IMG/VR virus record: IMGVR_UViG_3300008952_000005
Span: 113,461 to 177,460 of that record
Direction: 5' to 3' (one strand)
Source: a virus
DNA length: 64,000 bases
In this document: positions 1-12,133 of the stretch, one piece after another
Position numbering within the stretch: position 1 is the first letter of the stretch
How the letters are laid out: each line of letters begins with the position of its first letter
The notes under the pieces: generated by a model
Database searches by the model: none
The model's input: only the letters and a program-made list of their open reading frames with translations
Told to the model about the DNA's origin: nothing
Translations under genes and position numbers: made by a program

Positions 1-314
1 GGTTTAAAGTCAAATTTCGGCTGGGGCGTGGATGGTGCCGATCCCTTGTATCTCTCTAATAAGTATTCTCCGTATTTTTTTGGATCCAAGAATTTAATGA
101 AATTTGCTAAATTCTGACCCATACCACAATTGTGGCATTTGAAGAACATATCATTTTTTACTCTATAAAGATATGCCCTTGCTTTTGTTTTACTCTTCTG
201 CGAGTCTCCACAATGTGGACACCTAAAATTGAAAAGATAATCTGTCTTCTTTTTAAACTGGCTTAATGCTGAAGAAATAGCATTAATATACTTTAAATCT
301 ATATAACTTGACAT
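1..314 (-). CDS. 61: DNA primase (T4 gp61-like), N-terminal part, truncated by window edge
   Basis: This is the N-terminal 104 codons of a phage primase, which makes RNA primers for lagging-strand synthesis with the gp41 helicase. The frame opens at the ATG at 314 and stays open to base 1. It contains a zinc-ribbon: C-P-H-C-G-D near residues 34-39 and C-H-N-C-G near residues 62-66, as in the zinc-binding domain of TOPRIM primases. Aromatic and basic residues around the ribbon fit DNA-template reading. The catalytic TOPRIM domain would lie outside the window. An early-type promoter (328-356) lies just upstream and would leave a leader of only about 7 nt. The family call is good; gp61 is inferred from the T4-like context. 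Confidence 0.85.
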   Translation of the reverse strand, partial: MSSYIDLKYINAISSALSQFKKKTDYLFNFRCPHCGDSQKSKTKARAYLYRVKNDMFFKCHNCGMGQNLANFIKFLDPKKYGEYLLERYKGSAPSTPQPKFDFK

Positions 315-327
315 AACACTATCTCAT

Positions 328-356
328 AATATACACCATATCACAAAAAAAGTCAA
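328..356 (-). promoter_or_regulatory. Early-type sigma70-like promoter for primase
   Basis: On the minus strand TTGACT (351-356) is followed by a 17-nt spacer and TATATT (328-333). The same hexamers and the same 17-nt spacing recur upstream of uvsX, gp45 and several other genes in this window, which argues against chance. Confidence 0.75.
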
Positions 357-380
357 GTCTGTACACGAAAACCTGGTGAC

Positions 381-410
381 AAAAAAATACCCAGGCTATT
401 TTCCTCGGGT
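381..410 (-). terminator. Intrinsic terminator of the curli/FecR operon
   Basis: On the minus strand ACCC-G-AGG, a 7-nt loop, CCT and GGGT form a short GC-containing stem, followed immediately by ATTTTTTT. It lies 20 nt after the stop codon of the last gene of the curli/FecR cluster and before the primase promoter, so it closes that transcription unit. Confidence 0.7.
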
Positions 411-429
411 AAAAGGTAAGAGTTTTTTA

Positions 430-858
430 CTAGCTCAGCATATTCAAAATTTGCTCAAAATTACCTGCTACTATCCATCCTATTACTATAGCAGCACCTA
501 ATATAATCCATCTATATTTTTCTAATACACCAACTCTAACACCAATAGCATTATAAACTGTTTTAATCTCTAGTAATAAACGTCTTTCAGTTTGTTCTAT
601 TTCTCTAGTTAAATCTCTACGTATATTGTCTATTTCACCTGCACGTTCTTTTAACTTCTCAAATATAACTTCATCAATTTGTTCTTGTCTATTGATTTTT
701 TCTGAATGGACTGCCAACATAGACTTAATAGATGTTGATACATCTGTTAATTTGTCTATTGCTGTGTCTAAACGGTTGTGAATTCTATCAAATTCTTCAA
801 CGTCTTTTTTGAGTTTAGCAATATCTACTTTTGTTTTAATTCCGTTATTTTCGTCCAT
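430..858 (-). CDS. Coiled-coil protein with C-terminal transmembrane anchor (unknown function)
   Basis: A 142-aa protein I cannot assign. Residues 10-105 are heptad-rich and highly charged (long coiled coil). Residues 117-132 form one hydrophobic segment (WIILGAAIVIGWIVAG) followed by a short tail, so it is predicted to be tail-anchored. The layout resembles XhlA/holin-associated small phage proteins, but no signature residue proves that. It is the last gene of the curli/FecR operon and its ATG overlaps the upstream stop by one base (TAATG), implying translational coupling. Confidence 0.7.
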   Translation of the reverse strand: MDENNGIKTKVDIAKLKKDVEEFDRIHNRLDTAIDKLTDVSTSIKSMLAVHSEKINRQEQIDEVIFEKLKERAGEIDNIRRDLTREIEQTERRLLLEIKTVYNAIGVRVGVLEKYRWIILGAAIVIGWIVAGNFEQILNMLS

Positions 859-950
859 TAGAAATCTCTATCTATCCACTTGTAAATACTCCAATTCATA
901 TAGAGTAATAGACCCATTATTAACCAAAAATTAATTGTTCCCCAATCCAT
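858..950 (-). CDS. 30-aa single-pass membrane peptide
   Basis: A small ORF on the minus strand starting MDWGTINFWL and ending WIDRDF, with a hydrophobic stretch at residues 5-17. It is supported mainly by architecture: its ATG overlaps the stop of the preceding 43-aa ORF by one base, and its own stop overlaps the ATG of the 142-aa gene in the same TAATG manner. Function unknown. Confidence 0.5.
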   Translation of the reverse strand: MDWGTINFWLIMGLLLYMNWSIYKWIDRDF

Positions 951-1081
951 TATACGTTTCTCCATTGTGTTGGCAACCACCATTCGGTGTACCAATGTCT
1001 AAATTGTGCTGGGTGTCTACCTATGATAAAGATATACCAGAAACCCTTTATTAATTCTTTTATTGCTGTTAACCTACTCAT
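950..1081 (-). CDS. 43-aa small protein, Trp-rich C-terminus
   Basis: A minus-strand ORF starting MSRLTAIKEL with a hydrophobic patch (FWYIFIIG) and a Trp-rich tail (WYTEWWLP). Its ATG overlaps the stop of the 715-aa FecR-domain gene (TAATG) and its stop overlaps the next ATG. The unbroken coupling suggests a real gene. No function recognised; possibly a membrane-surface partner of the neighbouring secreted proteins. Confidence 0.5.
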   Translation of the reverse strand: MSRLTAIKELIKGFWYIFIIGRHPAQFRHWYTEWWLPTQWRNV

Positions 1082-3228
1082 TAATCCGTTTGTATTATAG
1101 TAATATTATTTTGTGTAGAGGAACTCCCTACGTCCACGTGTTGAGCTTCTGAATCTTGTAAAATCTGTATATCTGCTTCTTTACTTGTTTCAGTTTTTAC
1201 ATACGCTCTATGGCTATCATTATATCTATTTATGATTGTGTAGTCACCAGACGTTGAAGCAGTTGCGTTAAAGTCGTTATCTAACGTTGATACTCTTCCT
1301 GTAGAAGTAGTACTTGTTGACACACCACCGCTTGTTGTAGTTAAGGTTTGAGTTACATCTCCAGTAGAATAATTTAATGTTTCACCACTAGCAGTTACTT
1401 GCGTTTCTGAACCACTATTGTCTACCCATTCAGTACCACAACTAGAGTTGGCATTGTCCCAATAGTATCCATAATTTAAACACTCTTCTTTATCATAACT
1501 TGCTAATAATAATTCTAATTCTGCGTCTATATCATAGTCATCTTCGTAACCATATTCATCTTCCCAATTGGTCTCATCTGATTCATTATTGTAATCGTAA
1601 CCTGTATACCACCAATCATATACTGCGTCCCAATATGTATTCCAATCTGACCATTCCCAATCTGTTATGTACGTATTCTTTAAATCTTTCATCTTCCAAG
1701 GTTTAGGTTGATTTTCACACATTTTATAATTAGGATAACTTCCACACCAACCATATAATTTACCCCATATCTTTTTAGATTCTTTAGTCCAACTATCATT
1801 GGTTACTTTTAAAGTCCAGTCATCTTTGTACCACGAATTTAACCAATCAACATAGTCTTGGTTACACCAGTAGTCATCATAGCCATTGTACTCACAATAA
1901 TTTTGTATAGTTAATGTTGGTGGACCGCCTGCCGCTTTGTATTCTGCATTGTTATAATAGTCATCATCTAAAGCAAAATCTTCCCAAGTATATCCTTCAA
2001 CTACATCTGCTTCTGTTTCATCTTTTGTATCTTCAACTACGTTAACCTCTTCTTCTTCAACTGCCCAAGAAGTTAAACCATAATCTTCTAATAATTCATT
2101 ATACTCATCATAGTATGCGTCCCAATCAACTGCGTCCCAATCTACATCATCCCAATTAATAGTATCCCAAGTACAATCTGAACAACCAATGGCGTCAAAG
2201 TATGCTTGATCCATTTCTGCATACATTTTCTTTGCGTCATCCCAATCCATAGTTTGTTCACCTTCGGCATCCCAAACTGAAATCTGATTATCTTCATCTA
2301 TATAACCCCAATCTTTTAAATCTTCTTCCCAGGAATCATAATAAGATGTATCAACTTCTTCTACTTCAACTAATGCTGTTTCTTCTGCTGACTTTGTTTC
2401 AACTATTGCGTCTGTTTCACCAACAGATAAATCTGTAGCGACAATTGTATTACTATCTTCTACTACACTTGCTTCTTCATTAATTAATGCCTCTTCCATT
2501 GCCTGTGCTTCAGATTCTTCTTTAGACATTTCAGTTTTCATATCTACATCACCAAAATGTTTTTGAGATTCATCTTTTATTTCTTCTTCAAATTCATTTA
2601 ACTCAATAATATCTGACTTATTAGTTTCTATTTTTGGAGGTGTTGGTGCTAAATCATTTGATAAAACGGTTACTGAATTGTAAGCGTTAGTTATTGTTTG
2701 AGAACCTGCGTCATTGGATACAGTTACTTGTCCTACTACACCAGAACTATCTGGCAACAAAGTAATAGTTGCTTCACCTGTAGATGTTACCGTTCCTGAA
2801 AAAGCAGTACCTTGTACTGTAATTGTGGCATTACCAGCATTGATATTAACTTCACCACCTAAATTAGATATAGAACCTGATTCATATGTAAATGTACCAA
2901 CATTAACCGATATGTTCATTGCAATTTCTATTGGTACAACAGAAGTATCAAAAGCAAATTCATCAATAGTTAATTCTGTATTTGGTCCCATTGTAAATTT
3001 AGTTTTATCAACATATGATAAAATCATACCACCATCTTCTCCAGTTTGGAGAAAGTCATTCATCTGCAACTCATAACCCATTGAGGTATTTTGAGTTGAA
3101 CCATCTCTTTCGTTCCAAGTCGTACCCATTTGACCTATGACTTCGCCAACTTTTGGACCTGTTATTTGTGAGAAAACACTAGTACAAAAAAGTACCAGAA
3201 AAGATATTAAAAATAAAAACTTCTTCAT
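1081..3228 (-). CDS. Secreted FecR-domain protein with Trp/Asp/Tyr-rich middle
   Basis: A 715-aa exported protein. Residues 1-20 are a signal peptide (MKKFLFLISF..., likely cut after VFS). Residues about 25-185 match the FecR fold: repeated short beta strands with L-T-I-D-E, NISVNVGTFTY and a V-Q-G-T-A-F motif. Residues about 205-290 are acidic. About 290-600 are extremely rich in Trp, Asp and Tyr (for example WDDVDWDAVDWDAYYDE) and hold eight cysteines in loose pairs. Residues 610-715 are Ser/Thr-rich and could be fibre-like. In bacteria FecR-domain proteins often sit beside CHASE2 cyclases, as one does here 3 kb away. The gene overlaps the upstream thioredoxin-like gene by 4 nt (ATGA). Exact role unknown; a surface or periplasmic scaffold is my inference. 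Confidence 0.8.
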   Translation of the reverse strand: MKKFLFLISFLVLFCTSVFSQITGPKVGEVIGQMGTTWNERDGSTQNTSMGYELQMNDFLQTGEDGGMILSYVDKTKFTMGPNTELTIDEFAFDTSVVPIEIAMNISVNVGTFTYESGSISNLGGEVNINAGNATITVQGTAFSGTVTSTGEATITLLPDSSGVVGQVTVSNDAGSQTITNAYNSVTVLSNDLAPTPPKIETNKSDIIELNEFEEEIKDESQKHFGDVDMKTEMSKEESEAQAMEEALINEEASVVEDSNTIVATDLSVGETDAIVETKSAEETALVEVEEVDTSYYDSWEEDLKDWGYIDEDNQISVWDAEGEQTMDWDDAKKMYAEMDQAYFDAIGCSDCTWDTINWDDVDWDAVDWDAYYDEYNELLEDYGLTSWAVEEEEVNVVEDTKDETEADVVEGYTWEDFALDDDYYNNAEYKAAGGPPTLTIQNYCEYNGYDDYWCNQDYVDWLNSWYKDDWTLKVTNDSWTKESKKIWGKLYGWCGSYPNYKMCENQPKPWKMKDLKNTYITDWEWSDWNTYWDAVYDWWYTGYDYNNESDETNWEDEYGYEDDYDIDAELELLLASYDKEECLNYGYYWDNANSSCGTEWVDNSGSETQVTASGETLNYSTGDVTQTLTTTSGGVSTSTTSTGRVSTLDNDFNATASTSGDYTIINRYNDSHRAYVKTETSKEADIQILQDSEAQHVDVGSSSTQNNITIIQTD

Positions 3229-3596
3229 TTCTTAAACACCTCATCTAAATCATTATAAAACGATTCTTTATCTGCATACCCTATTATTCTTACCAATTCT
3301 TTTCTACCATTCCATACAATAAATGTTGGTGTTCCTCTAATAGGTTTAATTCTTCCTTCAGCATATGCCTCTTTAAACCATTTAGGTTGATTATATAAAT
3401 TAATAATAACTAAAGGTAAATCTTCATACTCATAGTCAACTCCTACCTCTTGTAAAAAGTTTTGACATATACCACACATAGGATTGTGTGCCATTAATAA
3501 TTCATTTGCTTTCGCTGATGATATGCCTAATACTAATAATACAGTAACACAAATTATTATTGCCCATTTTTCCCAAGGGTTGTGAAATAGTTTCAT
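3225..3596 (-). CDS. Membrane-anchored thioredoxin-like thiol oxidoreductase
   Basis: A 123-aa protein with one N-terminal hydrophobic helix (residues 11-28), so it is either an anchor or an uncleaved signal, followed by a compact thioredoxin-like domain. The active-site pair is C-G-I-C at residues 41-44 and the cis-proline is in R-G-T-P-T-F (P90). Such proteins catalyse disulfide exchange in the periplasm. Its immediate partner genes encode a FecR-domain protein with eight mature cysteines and a curlin with two, which are plausible substrates. It overlaps genes on both sides by 4 nt (ATGA). Family assignment is firm; the substrate is inference. Confidence 0.8.
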   Translation of the reverse strand: MKLFHNPWEKWAIIICVTVLLVLGISSAKANELLMAHNPMCGICQNFLQEVGVDYEYEDLPLVIINLYNQPKWFKEAYAEGRIKPIRGTPTFIVWNGRKELVRIIGYADKESFYNDLDEVFKK

Positions 3597-3724
3597 TTAA
3601 ATTTCTTCTTCTTTTCTTTTCTTTTCCATTTTTCTGGATAGTAATTGTGGATTAGTGTACAGATTATGCCACCCGATAAACATATTGTACCAAATATTAA
3701 AAAGAAAGCAAAAAAACCTTTCAT
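3593..3724 (-). CDS. 43-aa single-pass membrane protein
   Basis: A minus-strand ORF (MKGFFAFFLI...) with a hydrophobic N-terminal half (residues 3-26, including two cysteines) and a lysine-rich cytoplasmic-type tail. Its ATG abuts the curlin stop codon and its TGA overlaps the ATG of the thioredoxin-like gene. Function unknown. Confidence 0.55.
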   Translation of the reverse strand: MKGFFAFFLIFGTICLSGGIICTLIHNYYPEKWKRKEKKKKFK

Positions 3725-4816
3725 TTAACACCCATTAGATACTGTTGCTGTTACGTCTGCTGTTTGATTGTTTCTGTTATAAGAATAAGTACAAGTATAT
3801 GATCCAGTTTGAGCAAAGTTTAATGTGTAATCGTAAATTGAATCACCTGTTATAGTAACCTTACCAGTATTACCACCACCTGTTTGAGCAAAATTTATTA
3901 CTGTATCATCTGTATAAAGGAAAATTCTAGCAGTATTATTACCGCCTGCCATATGTAATCTAATTGTATTACTATCGCCATTTATTATCGTTCTTAACCA
4001 ATTGTTATCGCCAGATATTATAGCTGAGTCTCCATATGGGTCTGTATCAGCACTAGTATAACTAGAGTGAATATCTAAAAGATTTGAACTGCCTATAAAA
4101 TCGTGTAGTTGATAGTTACCTGTACCATATGATGAAGTGTGTATTACATTTGAATTTCCTACTATGTAAATATCTGCACTTGCACCTTCACTACCTGAAC
4201 TGTCTGCAAAATAACCGTGTGAAGAAGTTAGTGGACCAATTGCTTTGTTAGAGTTTGTATTAAATCCTACTGAATCAGTTGTACTATACCACTCTACAGT
4301 ATTACTATCACCGTTCATAAGAACATATAAGAAGTGATTATCACCTCTATTCTGAACCCAAAATGTATTTGAGTCACCAACAATATCTAAATCAACATTG
4401 AAATTTGCTGAATCATCTGTCCAAGTATCATAGTCTACTACATTTGAATTACCTGTAATAGTATGACCTAAATAATGACCTGTAGCATCCGTATCATCTA
4501 TACCTAATCTTAATTTATTAGAATTACCAGTTGCTGTATATAATAAAGTCATATCCTCACCATAAAAGTGTTGGTGACCAGAATAATCTGATACATTATT
4601 ATTACCTATCTGATTTATAATGATTGTAATGTTCTCTCCATTGACTTTAAATGGATATGTTGTTGAATAACCAACAGTATTACCTGTTCCATCTTGTTTT
4701 ATAAAGATAGAACCATCGCTGTCTTGATTGTCTTGTTGAATCCAAACTGAATTACCTGCTAGGCAATTACTCGTTAATGCTATTAGAGTCAACAGAATCA
4801 TTATCATTTTTTTCAT
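3725..4816 (-). CDS. Curlin-repeat protein (CsgA/CsgB-like amyloid subunit)
   Basis: A 363-aa secreted protein with a signal peptide (residues 1-20, cut after CLA). The mature part has many imperfect strand-loop repeats with curlin signatures: Q-x-G-x-G-N (IKQDGTGNTV), N-Q-I-G-N-N-N, F-A-Q-T-G-G-G-N, and a family of G-(D/N)-S-N-(T/V) turns about every 20-35 residues. Curlin subunits form extracellular amyloid fibres after export through CsgG. At 363 aa it is more than twice the usual length of CsgA/CsgB, and the repeats are less regular. Two cysteines lie near the C-terminus. Its start lies 50 nt inside the end of csgG. Its place directly after csgF and csgG supports the call. Confidence 0.75.
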   Translation of the reverse strand: MKKMIMILLTLIALTSNCLAGNSVWIQQDNQDSDGSIFIKQDGTGNTVGYSTTYPFKVNGENITIIINQIGNNNVSDYSGHQHFYGEDMTLLYTATGNSNKLRLGIDDTDATGHYLGHTITGNSNVVDYDTWTDDSANFNVDLDIVGDSNTFWVQNRGDNHFLYVLMNGDSNTVEWYSTTDSVGFNTNSNKAIGPLTSSHGYFADSSGSEGASADIYIVGNSNVIHTSSYGTGNYQLHDFIGSSNLLDIHSSYTSADTDPYGDSAIISGDNNWLRTIINGDSNTIRLHMAGGNNTARIFLYTDDTVINFAQTGGGNTGKVTITGDSIYDYTLNFAQTGSYTCTYSYNRNNQTADVTATVSNGC

Positions 4817-5897
4817 CTACTTCCTCCCAGGCTTTCTCGTCTTCTATTTTTTCTTTTATCTTGTTTTTGTTTTCTTCTTTTTGAATTTCTTTTGTTTTAA
4901 GTGCTTCTAAATGTGCTAAATGTGCTTGATATTCGTCCCAAGTTTTAAACTTTGTTTTATTGGCTTTGTTATAATTTTTTACTTCAAGTTTTTGTGCTTT
5001 CTTTAATTCTTTTTTAGCTTTCTTTTCTTTCTTAAAATCTTCGTATGTTTTCTCTGGTTTTGCTTCGCCAATATCAACTGTTATTTCATCTGCTACTACT
5101 TTTAAATCTTCTGTTGGTACTATTTCCACTAGTTCAAATTCCCATAGTCCTTTTTCTGCACCTTCATTAATTAATTCTACTACACCTTTTTCTATTGCTT
5201 TTCTTACTGCATAAGTTACAGGTTCATTTCTTGCCACACCTGCTTCAATCTCTACTAACATTGTATCAGTATCTAAATATTTAAATATATCGCTGCCAGT
5301 TTCACCTGATATTATAGTCTTCTCAACAGTAAGTGATACCACTACTTCACCTGTTTGTACATTAACAAGTCTTAATATAATTGTAACTACATCTTGTCGC
5401 CATTGTTTATGTGCTTGTATACCTAAAATTCTTGCACCAAAACCACCTGTCTTTACATCACTATCATAACCTACTATACCACCTGTTATATATGCACCTG
5501 CAAATAACAATGGTGGTAATGGTTCTGCACCTTCTCCATTAACTTGTTGTCTTGTAGAACGGATTAATTTTCTTTCTTGTAATAAACTTGGCAAACTTGC
5601 TCGTTCTACTATTCTAAACCATTTGCCATCACCTGCGTCTTGTAATGCTTTAATTAATAACTGATATGATCCTTGAGTTACTGCTGTACTCATAGACGCA
5701 AAGTTACCACCAGGTTTCTTTTGTCCTGTCATATCTAAAAAATCATATACTGCAATGATAATAGGATCGCCTTTAGGTAATTTCACTTCCGTTAATTCTT
5801 TATACAGAACAGGTTGAGACCTAACATCAAAGTCAGGTTTACCAGCACAACTAACTAACAATAATGTTAGTAATAATATAACTATACTTCTAAACAT
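4767..5897 (-). CDS. csgG: Curli secretion channel lipoprotein CsgG, with long charged C-terminal extension
   Basis: A 376-aa outer-membrane lipoprotein. The lipobox is L-V-S-C (C17). The body shows CsgG family features: I-A-V-Y-D-F-L-D-M-T-G-Q, the run through W-F-x-V-V-E-R/FRIVERASL, the LIRSTRQ segment, and the G-G-I-V-G-Y-D-S-D and W-R-Q-D-V-V-T-I-x-L-R-L-V-N stretches that build the nonameric pore. I chose the ATG at 5897 rather than the longer frame to 6002, because the extra 35 residues lie in csgF and lack a signal. After about residue 265 there is a Lys/Glu-rich tail of about 110 residues absent from E. coli CsgG. The start overlaps the csgF stop by one base. Confidence 0.9.
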   Translation of the reverse strand: MFRSIVILLLTLLLVSCAGKPDFDVRSQPVLYKELTEVKLPKGDPIIIAVYDFLDMTGQKKPGGNFASMSTAVTQGSYQLLIKALQDAGDGKWFRIVERASLPSLLQERKLIRSTRQQVNGEGAEPLPPLLFAGAYITGGIVGYDSDVKTGGFGARILGIQAHKQWRQDVVTIILRLVNVQTGEVVVSLTVEKTIISGETGSDIFKYLDTDTMLVEIEAGVARNEPVTYAVRKAIEKGVVELINEGAEKGLWEFELVEIVPTEDLKVVADEITVDIGEAKPEKTYEDFKKEKKAKKELKKAQKLEVKNYNKANKTKFKTWDEYQAHLAHLEALKTKEIQKEENKNKIKEKIEDEKAWEEVDEKNDNDSVDSNSINE

Positions 5898-6361
5898 TAT
5901 GAGTTGTCTTCTTTCGGCATTGTAAATGTTGTTACAGTTCCGTCGGTCTCCGTGACAGTTACGCTTACAGTATCGTTTGCTCCTGTAGTTGTTGTTGCCC
6001 AAGTTACTACTTCACCACCAACTGGTGATGTAAATGTACCAGAGTCTTGTTGTAGACCATCTGTACCAAAAACATTATCTGTAAGTTGTTTAGCAAGTGC
6101 TGTATAAAATCTTGATTCAACATTTGCTTTAAATTTTGCTATTGCTGTTGCCTTGGCGTCTGCTATTACTTTATCTGCCGCCGCTTTATTCGCTGCCTTT
6201 ATAGCATCCTTCCTAGTCTTCTCAATATTCTCTATCGTTAGATAATGTGAAGATTTACCTTGACCTGAAAATGATGGACTATGAAATTTAAAACTTAATT
6301 CACTTGCATAGGCACTAGGAACTAACAATAATACTGTTAAAATAATGGTTATTAATCGCAT
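5897..6361 (-). CDS. csgF: Curli assembly factor CsgF
   Basis: A 154-aa secreted protein and the first gene of the operon. Residues 1-19 are a signal peptide ending AYA. The mature N-terminus (S-E-L-S-F-K-F-H-S-P-S-F-S-G) matches the CsgF signature F-x-F-x-x-P-x-F-x-G, the segment that inserts into the CsgG pore. A basic, alanine-rich helix follows (residues about 48-85), then a beta-rich C-terminal region. In curli systems CsgF couples secretion to nucleation at the cell surface. It has a purine-rich ribosome site (AAGGA) and a late promoter 24 nt upstream. No csgE, csgC or separate csgB is visible nearby. Confidence 0.85.
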   Translation of the reverse strand: MRLITIILTVLLLVPSAYASELSFKFHSPSFSGQGKSSHYLTIENIEKTRKDAIKAANKAAADKVIADAKATAIAKFKANVESRFYTALAKQLTDNVFGTDGLQQDSGTFTSPVGGEVVTWATTTTGANDTVSVTVTETDGTVTTFTMPKEDNS

Positions 6362-6384
6362 TTTCCTTCTCTCTTTGATGTATA

Positions 6385-6392
6385 TATTTATA
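6385..6392 (-). promoter_or_regulatory. T4-type late promoter for the curli operon
   Basis: TATAAATA on the minus strand, 24 nt before the csgF ATG. The same octamer precedes portal, gp21, scaffold and tail-tube genes here. This implies that the curli cluster is expressed late, under gp55 and the sliding clamp. Confidence 0.7.
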
Positions 6393-6400
6393 AGATATCT

Positions 6401-6414
6401 GTACTAAATAGTAC
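6401..6414. repeat. Perfect inverted repeat in the divergent csgF / cyclase intergenic region
   Basis: GTACT-AAAT-AGTAC, a perfect 5-bp dyad ending 3 nt before the cyclase ATG and 9 nt from the late promoter of the curli operon. It could be an operator; this is suggestive only. Confidence 0.35.
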
Positions 6415-6416
6415 GT

Positions 6417-8072
6417 ATGATTAAAATATTGACGAAAACGTGGGCAGTATATTTGACGTTGATTATATTACTTGGAATATATATATCAAATCCTATCTTG
6501 CTACAAACAGCAAAACTAAACACCTTTGATTTTTACCAAACCTTTGGTAAGAATTATGAATCCAAAAGTTTAGTACTAGTAGACATATCAGACAAAGCAT
6601 TAAAAAAGAATGGGCAATGGCCGTGGAAAAGAGATTTACTTGGTCGTGTCATAATCAATGCGTATAAAAATGGTGCCGCTCTTGTAGTTTTACAAGTAGT
6701 CTTCCCACATAAAGATAGATTAGGTGGTGATGAAATGTTTTTGAAAATGATACAAAAATATCCAGTCATACTTACTGAAACGGATGATGTAAAAAATCTA
6801 CAAAGTATCTCACGTAAAGCATTAGCAATAGGTAACGTAAGTGTGCCAGTTGATATAGATGGCACTATAAGAAAACTACCTCTTGATAAATCCATACCTG
6901 ATGTTATCTTAAAAGTTATCAATGCAAAAACTTTAGCAGAAGATACTATCTGGATTGATTTCAGACATCATATTCCTAGAATAGATTTTACTGATAAAGA
7001 TTGGTCGTCTGTAAAAGGTAAAATAGTTTTCATAGGTACAACATTCCAAGGTTCAACATTTGTTACTACTCCTAATGGATTAAAAAACACACACGAAATT
7101 ATGGCAATCAGTACAGAAACTTTATTGTCAGGTAATTTTATTAGTAGACCTTATTGGTTACCATATAGTGAATTTGCTTTTATACTATTAGGTGCTCTAT
7201 TTTTTCTCATAGTTATACCTAGATGTGGTGTAATGTGGTCTGCGATATGGTTTGGTGGATACTTATTTGATTTAACACTTGCAAGTTCTTATCTATGGAC
7301 GCAACACTTAATCATAACTGATTGGTTCAGTCCACTTGTAATAGGGTCTGTAATATGGGGTCAGTTAACATACAATAACTATTCAAAAGAAAATAAATTA
7401 AGACTACAAATTAAGAAACAATTTGAACACTATCTATCTCCAGATATGGTTAAAAAACTACAAAAGAATCCATCACTATTAAAACTAGGTGGTGAAAGAA
7501 AAAAAATGACGTTTTTGTTTTCAGACATACGTGGCTTTACTCCTATATCGGAATCTATGAAAGGTAATCCAGAAAAACTTACCAAGTATGTTAATAAGTT
7601 CTTGACTGTAATGACTGATATAATATTAAAAAATGGTGGAACTATTGATAAGTATATGGGTGATTGTATAATGGCATTTTGGAACGCACCCCTAGACAAT
7701 CCAAATCATCAAAGATTAGCAGTATTATCTGCATCCCAAATGAAAAAAACAGTTGAAGAAATGAATAAGAGTAGAGAGTTTGACCCACCTTTAAAGATTG
7801 GTATAGGTATCAATACTGGTGAGTGTCTTGTAGGTAATATGGGGTCTGAACAACGTTTTGATTATTCTGTTATTGGTGACGCTGTTAATTTGGCAAGTAG
7901 ATTGGAAGGTAAAAGTAAAGATTTTGATACTACAATAGTAATATCTCAACATACTGCTGAAGGTATTGACTTTGTTCCATTGGCAAGACCAGATGGATTT
8001 AAATTCTATAAACTAGGTATCTCTACTGTAAAAGGTAAAAAAGAAAAGGTTAATTGTTTTTCTATTAAATAA
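6417..8072 (+). CDS. CHASE2-domain class III adenylyl cyclase (membrane)
   Basis: A 551-aa protein predicted to make cAMP from ATP. Layout: N-terminal TM helix (7-25), periplasmic CHASE2 sensor domain (about 30-245, with V-L-V-D-I-S-D and W-P-W motifs), three TM helices (about 250-318), then a class III cyclase domain. Metal-binding D370 (F-S-D-I-R-G-F-T) and D416 (K-Y-M-G-D), substrate Lys412, and transition-state N491 and R495 are all present. The usual substrate Asp is replaced by S484 (Y-S-V-I-G-D), the Thr/Ser variant known as class IIIb, in which Lys still favours adenine. It is the only long plus-strand gene, divergent from the curli operon. No clear ribosome site precedes the ATG. It was probably acquired from a bacterial host. 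Confidence 0.9.
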   Translation: MIKILTKTWAVYLTLIILLGIYISNPILLQTAKLNTFDFYQTFGKNYESKSLVLVDISDKALKKNGQWPWKRDLLGRVIINAYKNGAALVVLQVVFPHKDRLGGDEMFLKMIQKYPVILTETDDVKNLQSISRKALAIGNVSVPVDIDGTIRKLPLDKSIPDVILKVINAKTLAEDTIWIDFRHHIPRIDFTDKDWSSVKGKIVFIGTTFQGSTFVTTPNGLKNTHEIMAISTETLLSGNFISRPYWLPYSEFAFILLGALFFLIVIPRCGVMWSAIWFGGYLFDLTLASSYLWTQHLIITDWFSPLVIGSVIWGQLTYNNYSKENKLRLQIKKQFEHYLSPDMVKKLQKNPSLLKLGGERKKMTFLFSDIRGFTPISESMKGNPEKLTKYVNKFLTVMTDIILKNGGTIDKYMGDCIMAFWNAPLDNPNHQRLAVLSASQMKKTVEEMNKSREFDPPLKIGIGINTGECLVGNMGSEQRFDYSVIGDAVNLASRLEGKSKDFDTTIVISQHTAEGIDFVPLARPDGFKFYKLGISTVKGKKEKVNCFSIK

Positions 8073-8154
8073 ATGCTATTATTAAATAGCAACTTAACCC
8101 TATAACTATTCCCAATACTGCAACAACACCTGCTAAGGTATATATTGTCTTCAT
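8065..8154 (-). CDS. 29-aa single-pass membrane peptide
   Basis: A minus-strand ORF (MKTIYTLAGV...) that is almost entirely one hydrophobic helix. Its ATG overlaps the upstream stop (ATGA), and its 3' end overlaps the convergent cyclase gene by 8 nt. Weak evidence apart from the coupling pattern. Confidence 0.4.
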   Translation of the reverse strand: MKTIYTLAGVVAVLGIVIGLSCYLIIAFI

Positions 8155-8315
8155 TTTTTGTCTGTTAACTTATTAATAAGTTCAAACGCTACTTTAACTT
8201 TCTCTTCCAACACTTTAATTCTATAGTGTGATTGTGCTAAAGTAACTATCAATAACACAAATGCTACTAGCATTGGCCAAAGTCTACTCAACATTAATAC
8301 TGCTTCACTATCCAT
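8151..8315 (-). CDS. 54-aa membrane-anchored small protein
   Basis: A minus-strand ORF (MDSEAVLMLS...) with one TM helix at residues 12-27, then a short basic/acidic coiled-coil tail. The ATG overlaps the stop of the zinc-motif gene (TAATG). Function unknown; it belongs to the small-protein string that ends the lysis-region operon. Confidence 0.5.
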   Translation of the reverse strand: MDSEAVLMLSRLWPMLVAFVLLIVTLAQSHYRIKVLEEKVKVAFELINKLTDKK

Positions 8316-8500
8316 TACTGTACTATTTCATCTCCTGTTTTAACATTGGGTCTTGGTTTCTCACAAACTGAACAATCACATTTACTACAAATAATCGTTA
8401 CCGTTTTTTGATTTCGTAATCCATCTGGACTAGAAGTAGTATACTCCATTAACTTTTCAGGACAATGAGCTTCCCTACCACAATTCTTACACTTTTCCAT
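8315..8500 (-). CDS. Small cysteine-rich (zinc-ribbon-like) protein
   Basis: A 61-aa protein with C-K-N-C-G at residues 4-8, C13, and a C-S-K-C-D-C-S-V-C cluster near residues 38-46. The spacing fits a small zinc-binding module. No TM segment. It is coupled by TAATG overlap to genes on both sides. Function not recognised. Confidence 0.6.
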   Translation of the reverse strand: MEKCKNCGREAHCPEKLMEYTTSSPDGLRNQKTVTIICSKCDCSVCEKPRPNVKTGDEIVQ

Positions 8501-8676
8501 TACTTTTGTCTGTTAATTGTTTTCTTAACTAAATCAACAGTACTTTTACTAATATCTTTAGTCTTTGTTAATAAATTTCCACCAAGGTTTATTATTTTTG
8601 TTCTAGGTGTTATCTTTTCTTGTACAATCTTTTTTGTTTTTGGATCATACTTTTGCTGTAAAAATTCCATTACCAT
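8500..8676 (-). CDS. 58-aa basic small protein
   Basis: A minus-strand ORF beginning MVMEFLQQKY and ending KKTINRQK, lysine-rich with no TM segment or recognised motif. Its ATG overlaps the stop of the putative outer spanin and its TAA overlaps the next ATG, extending the coupled string. A GGAG-type ribosome site precedes it. Confidence 0.5.
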   Translation of the reverse strand: MVMEFLQQKYDPKTKKIVQEKITPRTKIINLGGNLLTKTKDISKSTVDLVKKTINRQK

Positions 8677-9047
8677 TATTCCTTCTCCTTTTCTTTTTTC
8701 TTATCATCTGGTTCATAATATTCTTTATACTGGTCAAGTAAATCATTAGTGTGTTTCAAGTGTGCTCTTATTTGAGCAAAGTTTTTTGCAATTAATTGAA
8801 AGTCCTTATCACTCAATCCAAATAGTACTGGATCAAGTCCTTCTGCTTCCATCTTTTGGAATACTTCTTCTGCATTGTCAGAAGTAATTATAATCCACCT
8901 CAACTTTTCAAGTTCAGGCATAGTTGGTTTAACTAAATCTAATTTCTGTCTAGGTTCTTCTAACTTAAATATTTTAAGTTGTTTCTCACCGATTGAGCAA
9001 CCAGTAAGTATTAGAACAGCAATGATACTAATTATTATACGGTACAT
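8676..9047 (-). CDS. Lipoprotein, candidate outer-membrane spanin (Rz1-like)
   Basis: A 123-aa lipoprotein with lipobox L-T-G-C (C17) and a mature part that is helical and charged, ending in a Lys/Glu run. Spanins fuse inner and outer membranes in the last step of lysis. The gene starts 20 nt inside the end of a gene encoding an N-terminally anchored coiled-coil protein, which is the classic overlapping Rz/Rz1 arrangement. It is longer than most Rz1 proteins and lacks proline richness, so the role is inferred from arrangement rather than from motif. Confidence 0.6.
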   Translation of the reverse strand: MYRIIISIIAVLILTGCSIGEKQLKIFKLEEPRQKLDLVKPTMPELEKLRWIIITSDNAEEVFQKMEAEGLDPVLFGLSDKDFQLIAKNFAQIRAHLKHTNDLLDQYKEYYEPDDKKKEKEKE

Positions 9048-9504
9048 ATGATGGATTTGCTATGGATGGGCACTCCCTATTAATTTCTGATTTTTTGGTT
9101 GCGTTCTTCTCTTGTTCGGTAAGTGGTGAACCACCTGCTATCTCTACACAACGAATAGCTTTATCACTTGCACCGTTAATAATTCTTTGTATTGTTTCTG
9201 TTTTTTCTATGGCGAGTTTACCAAAGTCACGACCTTTTTTATTAAATCTTTTATCTAAATCATCTAAATCTTTTTTAAGAGCTGAAACAAGTTCGTTCAT
9301 CTTGTTGTTTGCTTTTAAAATTTCTTTAAAGTCTTCTTGTTGCTTAGCAATGAGTTCCTTTTGAGAACTCACTGCTTCTTCCAATTTGATTTGATTCGCT
9401 TTTAAAATGGCATTATCGGATCGTAACTTCATTACATACATACCTGCACCTGCAAGTCCTGTAATCATCACAACTACCATCGCCATTTTTAAATAACCAA
9501 ACAT
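9028..9504 (-). CDS. Candidate inner-membrane spanin (Rz-like)
   Basis: A 158-aa protein with one N-terminal TM helix (residues 7-26), then a periplasmic coiled coil (about 30-110) with a Gln/Lys/Glu-rich heptad pattern, and two cysteines in the C-terminal part. This matches the layout of Rz inner spanins. The 3' end overlaps the lipoprotein gene in another frame. Upstream lies a small hydrophobic protein that could be the holin. No endolysin is seen in this window. Confidence 0.65.
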   Translation of the reverse strand: MFGYLKMAMVVVMITGLAGAGMYVMKLRSDNAILKANQIKLEEAVSSQKELIAKQQEDFKEILKANNKMNELVSALKKDLDDLDKRFNKKGRDFGKLAIEKTETIQRIINGASDKAIRCVEIAGGSPLTEQEKNATKKSEINRECPSIANPSYVPYNN

Positions 9505-9510
9505 AACTTT

Positions 9511-9669
9511 CTAGTCTTTCTTTAGAACTGCCCAAGCTCCGTAAGCAATTGCCGCCCAAGCAGCAATTTTAGCAACTGGACTGAAAAACAAAACTACAAC
9601 GCCTAATCCTATTAATACTCCACCGTGTAATGATGTTAGTTCTTTTAGTCTTCCTGTTATAAAACCCAT
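9511..9669 (-). CDS. 52-aa hydrophobic protein, possible holin
   Basis: A minus-strand ORF (MGFITGRLKE...) with two hydrophobic segments (residues about 17-30 and 33-47) separated by a short turn, preceded by a clear AGGAG ribosome site 7 nt before the ATG. Its size, two-helix topology and place directly before the spanin pair fit a holin, but holins have no diagnostic motif, so this stays tentative. Confidence 0.55.
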   Translation of the reverse strand: MGFITGRLKELTSLHGGVLIGLGVVVLFFSPVAKIAAWAAIAYGAWAVLKKD

Positions 9670-9684
9670 ATTGGTTCTCCTTTT

Positions 9685-10266
9685 TTATTTTATCTTGGCA
9701 CCAACTTTTCGGTGCTTATTCCAAGCCAAAAAACCACCTAGTCTTAAAGAATAATATGCTAGATAGTTCATAAGATAGAATCCATTTACTCCGATATTAA
9801 TATCTCTAAAGATTTCATCTGCTCTTTTTTGAGATATAACACCAAGGGTATCTGTCTTATTTATTTTTAATAATGTCTGATACTTATAAGCATAATCGTG
9901 TACCAAACCACCCATTAAAAGTACACCTACTGGTGATAAAAATGTATGCAAGAATTTTGGAATACTTGCACCGTCAAATTTAAATCCAGCTGGTATCGTA
10001 TATTTTATATCGTTTAATTCGTATTCAAAATCTTCTGCGATTTCCCAATTTCTTGTAGTGAGTATCCACAAAAGAATTCCTTTAAAAAAACCTTTGCCTT
10101 TTGTTCTTATTGGCAACGCTCTCATAACTGGCATTTTTTTATATGTAAAGTTATGACATTTAGGTTTCTTCTTATCAAATAAATTGATAATTAGTCCTGC
10201 TATAATAACTAAAATTACTATAGACCACATCCAAAACTTCATTGCTAAACTTATTATTAGTTCCAT
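9685..10266 (-). CDS. DUF1353 family membrane-anchored protein
   Basis: A 193-aa protein with an N-terminal TM helix (about residues 12-30) and a DUF1353 domain: I-P-A-G-F-K-F-D-G-A-S-I-P (around residue 91) and G-L-V-H-D-Y-A-Y (around residue 120), both hallmarks of the family. DUF1353 proteins are common in phages, often near tail or lysis genes. The conserved H-D-Y motif suggests a metal or catalytic site, but no activity is established that I know of. The gene ends 15 nt upstream of the hydrophobic 52-aa ORF. Confidence 0.8.
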   Translation of the reverse strand: MELIISLAMKFWMWSIVILVIIAGLIINLFDKKKPKCHNFTYKKMPVMRALPIRTKGKGFFKGILLWILTTRNWEIAEDFEYELNDIKYTIPAGFKFDGASIPKFLHTFLSPVGVLLMGGLVHDYAYKYQTLLKINKTDTLGVISQKRADEIFRDINIGVNGFYLMNYLAYYSLRLGGFLAWNKHRKVGAKIK

Positions 10267-10560
10267 TTATTTCTTCCTTGTTCTCATACTAGATGTTGGT
10301 TGAGCACCTCTTACGTGAACCATACCACCCATAGTATTTTCTTTCTTTTTATTTCTTGGTTCTACTTTTGGATCAGCAGACAAAAAAGGTCTTTGATTTA
10401 CTGCTGTTGTATAAGCAGCGTGTAATCCAACACCTCTAACATTTTTTCCACCTGCTTTCTTTTTAGGTGGTGTATCACCTAAACTTGCTATAGGTTGTAC
10501 ATTTGAATAGTTTCCTATTCTAACACCTGTTGTACCTATAAACTCTTTAAAACTTTTCAT
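10267..10560 (-). CDS. Small basic protein with capsid-targeting-like N-terminus
   Basis: A 97-aa protein beginning MKSFKEFIGTTG, which resembles the T4 internal-protein capsid-targeting sequence (MKTYQEFIAE). The rest is basic and Gly/Pro-containing, with no enzyme motif, and the C-terminus ends RTRKK. It could be a DNA-binding internal head protein; this is inference. It overlaps its upstream neighbour by 4 nt (ATGA). Confidence 0.65.
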   Translation of the reverse strand: MKSFKEFIGTTGVRIGNYSNVQPIASLGDTPPKKKAGGKNVRGVGLHAAYTTAVNQRPFLSADPKVEPRNKKKENTMGGMVHVRGAQPTSSMRTRKK

Positions 10561-10883
10561 ACTCTTGCTTTTTCTTTAATAGTCTTTTTTCTTTTAGGTG
10601 TTTCAATTTTAATTTCTTCTTTCACAACTCCACTTATTTCATCAATCTTATTTTCAAGTTTATTTAACACTTTATAAACACCTTTCAATACAACATTGTT
10701 ATTGTCTTCACTCTCTTGTACTTTTCTTTTTAAAGTACCCATAACTCTTTTCTTACCAGTTGGATTCATATCTACACCACCGTGTGCTACTGCATTTGCT
10801 GGTGCGTCTTCTTTTTTTTCTTTATCATCAATCTTATTGATGAGTTCGTCCATCATATCTTTATAATGTTTTGGCATACTCAT
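10557..10883 (-). CDS. Hypothetical charged protein
   Basis: A 108-aa Lys/Glu-rich protein with a helical C-terminal half (residues about 60-95, coiled-coil-like) and a basic tail. No recognised domain. It overlaps its neighbours at both ends (4 nt downstream, 23 nt upstream), placing it in the late gene string. Confidence 0.65.
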   Translation of the reverse strand: MSMPKHYKDMMDELINKIDDKEKKEDAPANAVAHGGVDMNPTGKKRVMGTLKRKVQESEDNNNVVLKGVYKVLNKLENKIDEISGVVKEEIKIETPKRKKTIKEKARV

Positions 10884-11340
10884 ACTCCGATACTAGTTTA
10901 TTATTTTGTTCATATATACCTACACCTAGACAAGTCATTACTGGTTCATCTTCTATGTCTGGTATATCTCTTACTTCATTTAACATAGTTTCATACTGGT
11001 TAGTTTCTTTTAAATATGAAACAACACCTGCTTCTATTGCGTCTTTGTGTGCCATTAACTGTTTATCTTCTCTCAATATCATTGCCATAGCACCAAAAAA
11101 AGTACCAAACTTACTACCTAATCCAACTTTACCAAATAATCTTTTCATATTAAAAACAAATCTATGTAAATATGTATATGCTTTTTTATCTTTACTATCT
11201 CTCAATGTCTTATTAGGTCTTAATACTTTACCTTTCTTATCAATAATACCTCGTTTAAAAGCTTCTTGCTTTTCCCAAGATGTTACCAATAGTTTAACTA
11301 CTCGGTAAGTTATTAACATATCTATTGCTCTACTTGCCAT
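10861..11340 (-). CDS. Hypothetical protein, possible virion-associated
   Basis: A 159-aa mixed alpha/beta protein that I do not recognise. The N-terminal half is basic (K-R-G-I-I-D-K-K-G-K) and the C-terminal half acidic. No signal or TM segment. It lies in a minus-strand run of late genes and overlaps the previous stop by one base (TAATG). Confidence 0.65.
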   Translation of the reverse strand: MASRAIDMLITYRVVKLLVTSWEKQEAFKRGIIDKKGKVLRPNKTLRDSKDKKAYTYLHRFVFNMKRLFGKVGLGSKFGTFFGAMAMILREDKQLMAHKDAIEAGVVSYLKETNQYETMLNEVRDIPDIEDEPVMTCLGVGIYEQNNKLVSEYEYAKTL

Positions 11341-11702
11341 TACAGTTCCTTTAACATTTGTTTTATCTTTTCATCTTCATCTACATCACCTAGTTCGTGT
11401 TCATAAAGTAATTTAAGATAGTTCAATACTGTTTTTAATACTGACCAATATTCTCTATCTATTTTAAATAATAATAAAGTTATCGCTACATCTGCACTAA
11501 AAACATTTTGTAATACTACAATGTGATTAATAATTAATCTTATTTTAACGTCACCTGTAGTTTTATACTTACGAAATAACCTTTTAAGATATTTAAATCG
11601 TTTTATATCTTCCAAAAATTCTACATTATCTTCCAATGTAGGATTGCTATAATTTTGCTGAGCAAATAGCAACCAATTATCTTTGGTTATTTCCTCAAAC
11701 AT
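11340..11702 (-). CDS. Hypothetical helical protein
   Basis: A 120-aa, largely helical protein with alternating basic and hydrophobic stretches (K-R-F-K-Y-L-K-R-L-F-R-K-Y-K) and an acidic C-terminus. No motif recognised. Located between a targeting-sequence protein and the 159-aa ORF. Confidence 0.6.
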   Translation of the reverse strand: MFEEITKDNWLLFAQQNYSNPTLEDNVEFLEDIKRFKYLKRLFRKYKTTGDVKIRLIINHIVVLQNVFSADVAITLLLFKIDREYWSVLKTVLNYLKLLYEHELGDVDEDEKIKQMLKEL

Positions 11703-11707
11703 CTGAC

Positions 11708-12133
11708 CTACACCAATTTAGCGTAGACCTTTGATGTTCCGTTTTTCAAAGTTTCATAATTAACTTCTAAATTTAGACCGCCAGATTTTTTGTGTGATAT
11801 ACCATCATCATTAATATCAGAACCGTCTGTATCTTTTCCAAACCTTCCACCAAATTGACTAACTTTCGCACTAACTTTTCCAGATGTTCCTTCCATATTA
11901 ACTGGTGATACTGTTAAACCAATTCGGTTTAGTTTTTCTCTCAAACTATCTACCGCTTGTTGTGGTTTAAGGTATTCCATATCTCCTATAGAACCTACAA
12001 AAGCATTAACTCTATTTAATACTTCTGGATCGGAAACGTTATGTACGCCTAAATTACCATCTTCAACTGCATTAGATGTTGCTGTTCCAACCATCTTGCC
12101 GTCTTCTGTTATGTGTTGTTTAAACGTTTTCAT
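11708..12133 (-). CDS. Hypothetical protein with capsid-targeting-like N-terminus
   Basis: A 141-aa protein beginning MKTFKQHITEDG, similar to the T4 capsid-targeting peptide. The C-terminal part is rich in Gly, Ser and Asp (G-K-D-T-D-G-S-D-I-N-D-D-G resembles a calcium-binding loop with D at positions 1, 3 and 5). A virion-internal role is inferred only from the N-terminus and late context. Confidence 0.65.
   Translation of the reverse strand: MKTFKQHITEDGKMVGTATSNAVEDGNLGVHNVSDPEVLNRVNAFVGSIGDMEYLKPQQAVDSLREKLNRIGLTVSPVNMEGTSGKVSAKVSQFGGRFGKDTDGSDINDDGISHKKSGGLNLEVNYETLKNGTSKVYAKLV

Follow-up and report, generated by a model that had tools for sequence, protein, structure and literature searches.

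Phages of SAR11-type bacteria carry genes for curli secretion, and according to published work no curli genes occur in hosts of this type. What, then, does a pelagimyophage-type phage build with such genes, and at what point of the infection? The window analysed here is a stretch of 64,000 nucleotides (positions 113,461 to 177,460) of the 177-kb IMG/VR record IMGVR_UViG_3300008952_000005. That the module exists, what genes it contains and what benefits it might bring is already known: CsgF and CsgG were reported in pelagimyophages in 2020 (PMC7029224), and curlin, FecR and adenylate cyclase, with metatranscriptome support, in myo- and podoviral pelagiphages in 2022 (PMC9599517). Aggregation, host capture and a block of superinfection are speculated benefits already in print (PMC7029224, PMC9599517). 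The initial annotation of this DNA rightly suspected curli-like genes in pelagimyophages and described a complete late operon for curli-type secretion. Gene content, domains, promoter, linkage and catalytic residues can be read from the sequence, and the features of the locus are as follows:

6417..8072, + strand: CHASE2-adenylate cyclase, divergent from the operon (CHASE2, 5.4e-28; Guanylate_cyc, 1.9e-22)
6404..6410, + strand: CTAAATA, possible promoter element of the cyclase; a similar element is present in 21 of 24 distinct divergent loci
6385..6392, - strand: T4-type late promoter TATAAATA, 31 nt upstream of the csgF ATG
5897..6361, - strand: csgF, signal peptide and CsgF domain (PF10614, E 5.9e-11)
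4767..5897, - strand: csgG, lipoprotein pore (PF03783, E 8.7e-50)
3725..4816, - strand: curlin-repeat protein, 363 aa (profile, repeat and model evidence)
3593..3724, - strand: membrane peptide, 43 aa, present in few relatives
3225..3596, - strand: exported thioredoxin-like protein with CxxC (PF13098, 6.1e-6, at its cut-off)
1081..3228, - strand: FecR-domain protein, 715 aa (PF04773, model, fold matches and tail motif)
858..1081, - strand: two small ORFs of 43 and 30 aa, coupled through TAATG overlaps
430..858, - strand: coiled-coil protein with a C-terminal membrane helix (DUF7201; PF23831, 5.5e-15)
381..411, - strand: terminator-like hairpin and T-run, seen in the sequence

The minus-strand genes form a coupled chain from 6361 to 430, in which stops and starts touch or overlap throughout. 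The order is csgF, csgG, curlin, the 43-aa ORF, the thioredoxin-like gene, FecR, two peptides and the coiled-coil membrane protein. All three csg-type ORFs lie where the initial annotation had placed them, and they are consecutive and translationally overlapping, as it had described: csgF and csgG share TAATG, and csgG and curlin overlap by 50 nt, which is the commonest overlap among the relatives too. The DUF7201 coiled-coil protein is present in 40 of 81 sequences. The thioredoxin-like gene is rare at this position and was found in just a few close relatives. No RNA family was detected by Rfam within positions 1-12000.

The TATAAATA element occurs in 13 copies on the gene-bearing strand and in none on the other strand, about 10 per strand being expected from composition alone, and every copy (13/13) has an ORF start within 72 nt downstream. 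Among 78 related viral loci, 63 carry the element somewhere in the 100 nt that precede csgF, most often at -29 to -32. Such a fixed distance ahead of the operon is characteristic of a T4-type late unit. The late promoter claimed earlier is upheld by this conservation, which gives good evidence that the operon is transcribed late, the timing being deduced from the promoter. As for the intrinsic terminator proposed at the other end, the hairpin and the T-run are present at 411-381, but the fold is no more stable than those of shuffled sequences (z 0.01). The CTAAATA element is found at a very short distance from the start of the cyclase gene and is perhaps a second, divergent late-type promoter producing a near-leaderless transcript.

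The match of CsgF to PF10614 spans nearly the whole profile. Its N-terminal F.F.SP.F.G segment, through which CsgF binds CsgG, aligns with E. coli CsgF and is conserved, P29, F31 and G33 being invariant. CsgG shows 38% identity to E. coli CsgG in the alignment, which, together with the PF03783 match, identifies it as the outer-membrane pore; the lipobox Cys17 is invariant, and the charged C-terminal extension varies in length. The curlin-repeat protein carries a signal peptide and two invariant C-terminal cysteines. Taken alone, the sequence gives a weak identification (NCBIfam CsgA, E 0.003), whereas that of the family is firm: PF07012 (Curlin_rpt) matches 19 of 39 relatives, with the best value of 6.7e-8, and E. 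coli CsgA (8enq, E 1.7e-4) is the sole PDB chain that a search with the family profile returned. The protein contains 13 GxxN motifs, compared to a mean of 4.3 and a maximum of 11 in 2000 shuffles. AlphaFold predicts an all-beta solenoid (pLDDT 73), in line with the curlin fold proposed initially and with an exported curlin-repeat subunit. Given this model and the CsgF and CsgG profile matches, neither of the refuting conditions set in the initial annotation applies. A Foldseek search with this model returned no match at E <= 0.001; the VIA-align matches were generic beta-helices and were not used for functional inference.

The CsgE gate, which is not universal among curli systems, gave no PF10627 match in the 177-kb record, which is possibly incomplete; the absence of this helper had been pointed out earlier. 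The operon can be called complete only as a system without CsgE and CsgC. FecR, the thioredoxin-like gene and the CHASE2-cyclase, which are part of the module, had gone unrecognised. The missing gate would suit a CsgG pore that stands open for the uptake of nutrients or cofactors during infection (PMC7029224, PMC9599517). We consider this very improbable, as such a pore leaves unexplained both the late promoter and the invariable linkage of CsgF, curlin and FecR.

This linkage was traced in 80 IMG/VR loci sharing the same core. All five core genes (CsgF, CsgG, curlin, FecR and CHASE2-cyclase) are present in 32 of the 32 loci with enough flank, and a search seeded with FecR placed CsgG upstream of it in every testable locus (73 of 73); the related loci share kinship and some contigs recur, so these counts are not numbers of independent events. 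The cyclase is divergent upstream of csgF in 20 of the 32 loci and lies downstream of FecR in 10; in the other two, also divergent, a second cyclase is present or the FecR call is split. Judged by DNA polymerase, Pelagibacter phage Mosig (MT647606.1, 73.7%) is the closest isolate, and csgG, csgF and cyclase gave no match in it. Since Mosig yields no match to the module, the module is accessory, and near relatives with and without it can be compared. Bacterial relatives of the phage FecR and CsgG were not found in two contig scans, which used narrow phage-specific peptide patterns and are no proof that such relatives are absent. Annotated plasmid loci with csgG list neither FecR nor cyclase beside the csg genes.

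Just beyond the cyclase, at 8676-9504 (-), there is a spanin-like pair consisting of an Rz-like protein (9028-9504) and an overlapping lipoprotein (8676-9047), and the curli module is thus a neighbour of lysis genes. A 54-aa membrane-plus-coiled-coil protein is encoded at 8151-8315 (-); 61 of 81 sequences carry it beside the cyclase or csgF. In HTVC008M and Melnitz, csgF is preceded by small membrane coiled-coil proteins; as these have no kinase domain, the label "histidine kinase" used in PMC9599517 is unsuited to these loci.

It was proposed for Melnitz that CsgG and CsgF have been repurposed as a lysis-timing pore, similar to a pinholin or a secretin, with no fibre being made (PMC9004378). 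This idea rested on absent curlins, the fibre genes being stated to be missing (PMC9004378), yet two curlin-repeat proteins are annotated in the Melnitz-3 GenBank entry. The spanin-like neighbours and the lack of the CsgE gate agree with a lysis pore, but no fully covered locus has CsgG without a curlin and FecR, neither of which a bare pore needs. In addition, CsgG is an outer-membrane lipoprotein, whereas pinholins reside in the inner membrane, and CsgF retains its CsgG-binding segment. A lysis pore therefore seems improbable to us, and a module that builds fibres is the reading preferred below.

The 715-aa FecR protein comprises a signal peptide, a FecR/anchoring domain (residues 24-199), a Cys/Trp/Tyr-rich region (approximately 293-607) and a beta-rich tail with curlin-like strands. 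The chain starts with the hydrophobic signal segment (from residue 2) and enters the FecR domain directly, at around residue 24. The Pfam domain PF04773 was matched in 23 of 35 relatives, and the model of residues 100-199 is similar to the periplasmic domains of FecR/PupR (Z 8.0-8.7); a periplasmic FecR domain is thus present, whereas the cytoplasmic anti-sigma region that precedes the membrane helix in FecIR-type regulators is not. In the model, which is of modest confidence (pLDDT 67, pTM 0.28), the cell-surface anchoring domain 5ix9 is by far the best match to residues 24-96 (Z 12.9, rmsd 1.3, 73/76 residues). The NCBIfam family retention_LapA matches 16 of the 35 members, weakly (best 0.0034) and below the family cut-off.

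Of the 35 FecR members, 34 carry two [IV]x[IVL]xQ strands within their last 40 residues; elsewhere in these 35 proteins the motif occurs six times altogether. E. coli CsgB and the HTVC008M FecR each have one terminal strand of this kind. Two tail motifs are reached in about 1% of shuffled FecR tails, and Curlin_rpt was not detected in FecR by Pfam; the motif is suggestive of curlin-like strands. The region of residues ~293-607 is helical, rich in Cys, Trp, Tyr and Asp, and contains eight conserved cysteines, six of them invariant. It has no Pfam or PDB match, the fold matches of the model stop short of it, and it is missing from the shorter FecR proteins of HTVC008M and Melnitz.

In the literature, the FecR protein is labelled an iron-dependent regulator (PMC9599517), a role that we reject on the architecture of the protein, in which a signal peptide is present but the anti-sigma part is missing. 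A broader version, in which iron-responsive FecR and cAMP from the cyclase control curli expression (PMC9599517), can draw on the PF04773 match and on the presence of a class III cyclase. We give it little credence: besides the architecture of FecR, the operon stands under its own phage late promoter, and the record encodes no cNMP-binding protein. For the same reason, any target of cAMP would be the host's.

The cyclase contains both the CHASE2 sensor and the class III adenylate cyclase domain. Residues D370, K412, D416, D488, N491 and R495, which we take to have catalytic metal, substrate and transition-state roles, are invariant in 21 relatives, so that every residue to be expected in an active enzyme of class III is retained. 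A similar pairing is seen in bacteria. On pSymB of Sinorhizobium meliloti, a gene for a FecR-TPR protein, whose product is presumably NsrA, overlaps the start of cyaK, which encodes a CHASE2-cyclase. CyaK signalling depends on the outer-membrane protein NsrA (PMC7529298), and gene clusters that combine CHASE2-cyclases with outer-membrane proteins bearing a FecR domain occur in Campylobacterota (PMC9239204). By analogy, we infer that the phage took, or assembled, a bacterial-type FecR/CHASE2-cyclase pairing inside its curli module.

Because FecR has a signal peptide, no anti-sigma part, a 5ix9-like domain and a curlin-like tail, and because FecR/CHASE2 pairs exist in bacteria, it is more likely to be a fibre anchor or nucleator signalling to the cyclase than an iron regulator. 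In its full form, the proposal makes FecR a new curli component, an envelope anchor or nucleator with terminal curlin strands that would relay the status of the fibre or the outer membrane to the CHASE2-cyclase and thereby raise host cAMP; in this form it is a possibility that we hold to be rather doubtful.

Export, fibre formation, anchoring, cAMP signalling and benefit are the inferred part of the model. In a late burst, CsgG would export curlin, CsgF would be seated in the mouth of CsgG and position fibre growth, and curlin would fold into a solenoid fibre. The FecR/anchoring domain would be held at the envelope, where the curlin-like C-terminal strands could anchor or nucleate the fibre in the manner of CsgB. 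The FecR domain might then report to the CHASE2 domain of the cyclase, as is thought for bacterial outer-membrane FecR proteins, and host cAMP would rise. Where the thioredoxin-like protein occurs, its probable targets are the cysteines conserved in FecR and curlin.

The benefit is the least certain step; it is probably adhesion around lysis, which would keep cells or debris near the new virions. In HTVC008M the second curlin, AGE60352 (L083:9444-10769), has an N-terminal PA14 domain (PF07691, 2.7e-6). Domains of this type are common among carbohydrate-binding proteins, and this one may be a carbohydrate-binding head for the fibre. The preference for adhesion is helped by this PA14-curlin fusion; receptor masking is another possible benefit. 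The sole culture observation comes from Melnitz, a phage with a related module, and no clumping was seen (PMC9004378). This agrees with the suggestion that the fibres or the pore chiefly mask the cell surface, blocking superinfection or the sticking of progeny to debris, and do not aggregate cells (PMC9599517). Masking is within the reach of surface fibres, but late expression is poorly timed for a superinfection block, and the PA14 domain points to adhesion; we regard masking as the chief function as unlikely, if still a serious contender. The absence of clumping also counts against the preferred reading, as do the missing CsgE, the lack of a cAMP-binding protein in the record, the modest confidence of the FecR model, the chance level of its tail motif, the failure of Pfam to detect Curlin_rpt in FecR and the rarity of the thioredoxin-like gene. 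A late curli-secretion operon in a pelagimyophage-type phage, as initially annotated, is supported, "late" being deduced from the promoter. The whole explanation, a phage type VIII (curli) module that builds fibres late, with a FecR anchor or nucleator, a cyclase input and an adhesion benefit, has in our judgement an even chance of being correct.

Outside subscription papers and preprints, the literature searched yielded nothing on the conservation of the late promoter or the constancy of the five genes in this clade, nor on FecR as a secreted anchor or a link of the NsrA-CyaK type. SAR11-type bacteria are among the most abundant cells on Earth, and their phages keep a costly curli-plus-cAMP module of ~8 kb. 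To view FecR not as an "iron regulator" but as a secreted protein that anchors the fibre and partners a CHASE2-cyclase would tie this module to bacterial outer-membrane-to-cAMP signalling and make its function genetically testable.

Among the known systems close to this locus, the pelagiphage T8SS/curli module of HTVC008M, pelagimyophage MAGs and HTVC023P-type podoviruses (PMC7029224, PMC9599517) has the same CsgF-CsgG-curlin-FecR-cyclase set and order. In HTVC008M and Melnitz, two curlins flank a FecR of 369-370 aa. The present locus differs in that it has a single curlin of 363 aa, its FecR is 715 aa long and includes an additional Cys/Trp/Tyr-rich domain, the cyclase is divergent, and a thioredoxin-like gene is present. 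The likeness to E. coli csgBAC/csgDEFG lies in CsgG, the CsgF segment and the curlin repeats; in contrast to E. coli, the phage module appears to lack CsgE, CsgC and CsgD, adds FecR and the cyclase and is a single late operon. The large adhesins that carry the cell-surface anchoring (retention) domain of 5ix9 and LapA are secreted by the type I route. The similarity of phage FecR to the 5ix9/LapA retention module lies in the predicted fold of residues 24-96, but unlike these adhesins it has a Sec signal peptide and a curli context. As in NsrA-CyaK and the Campylobacterota clusters (PMC7529298, PMC9239204), a FecR-domain envelope protein adjoins a CHASE2-cyclase; the bacterial protein, with its TPRs and predicted barrel, is encoded outside curli loci, whereas the phage FecR ends in a curlin-like tail.
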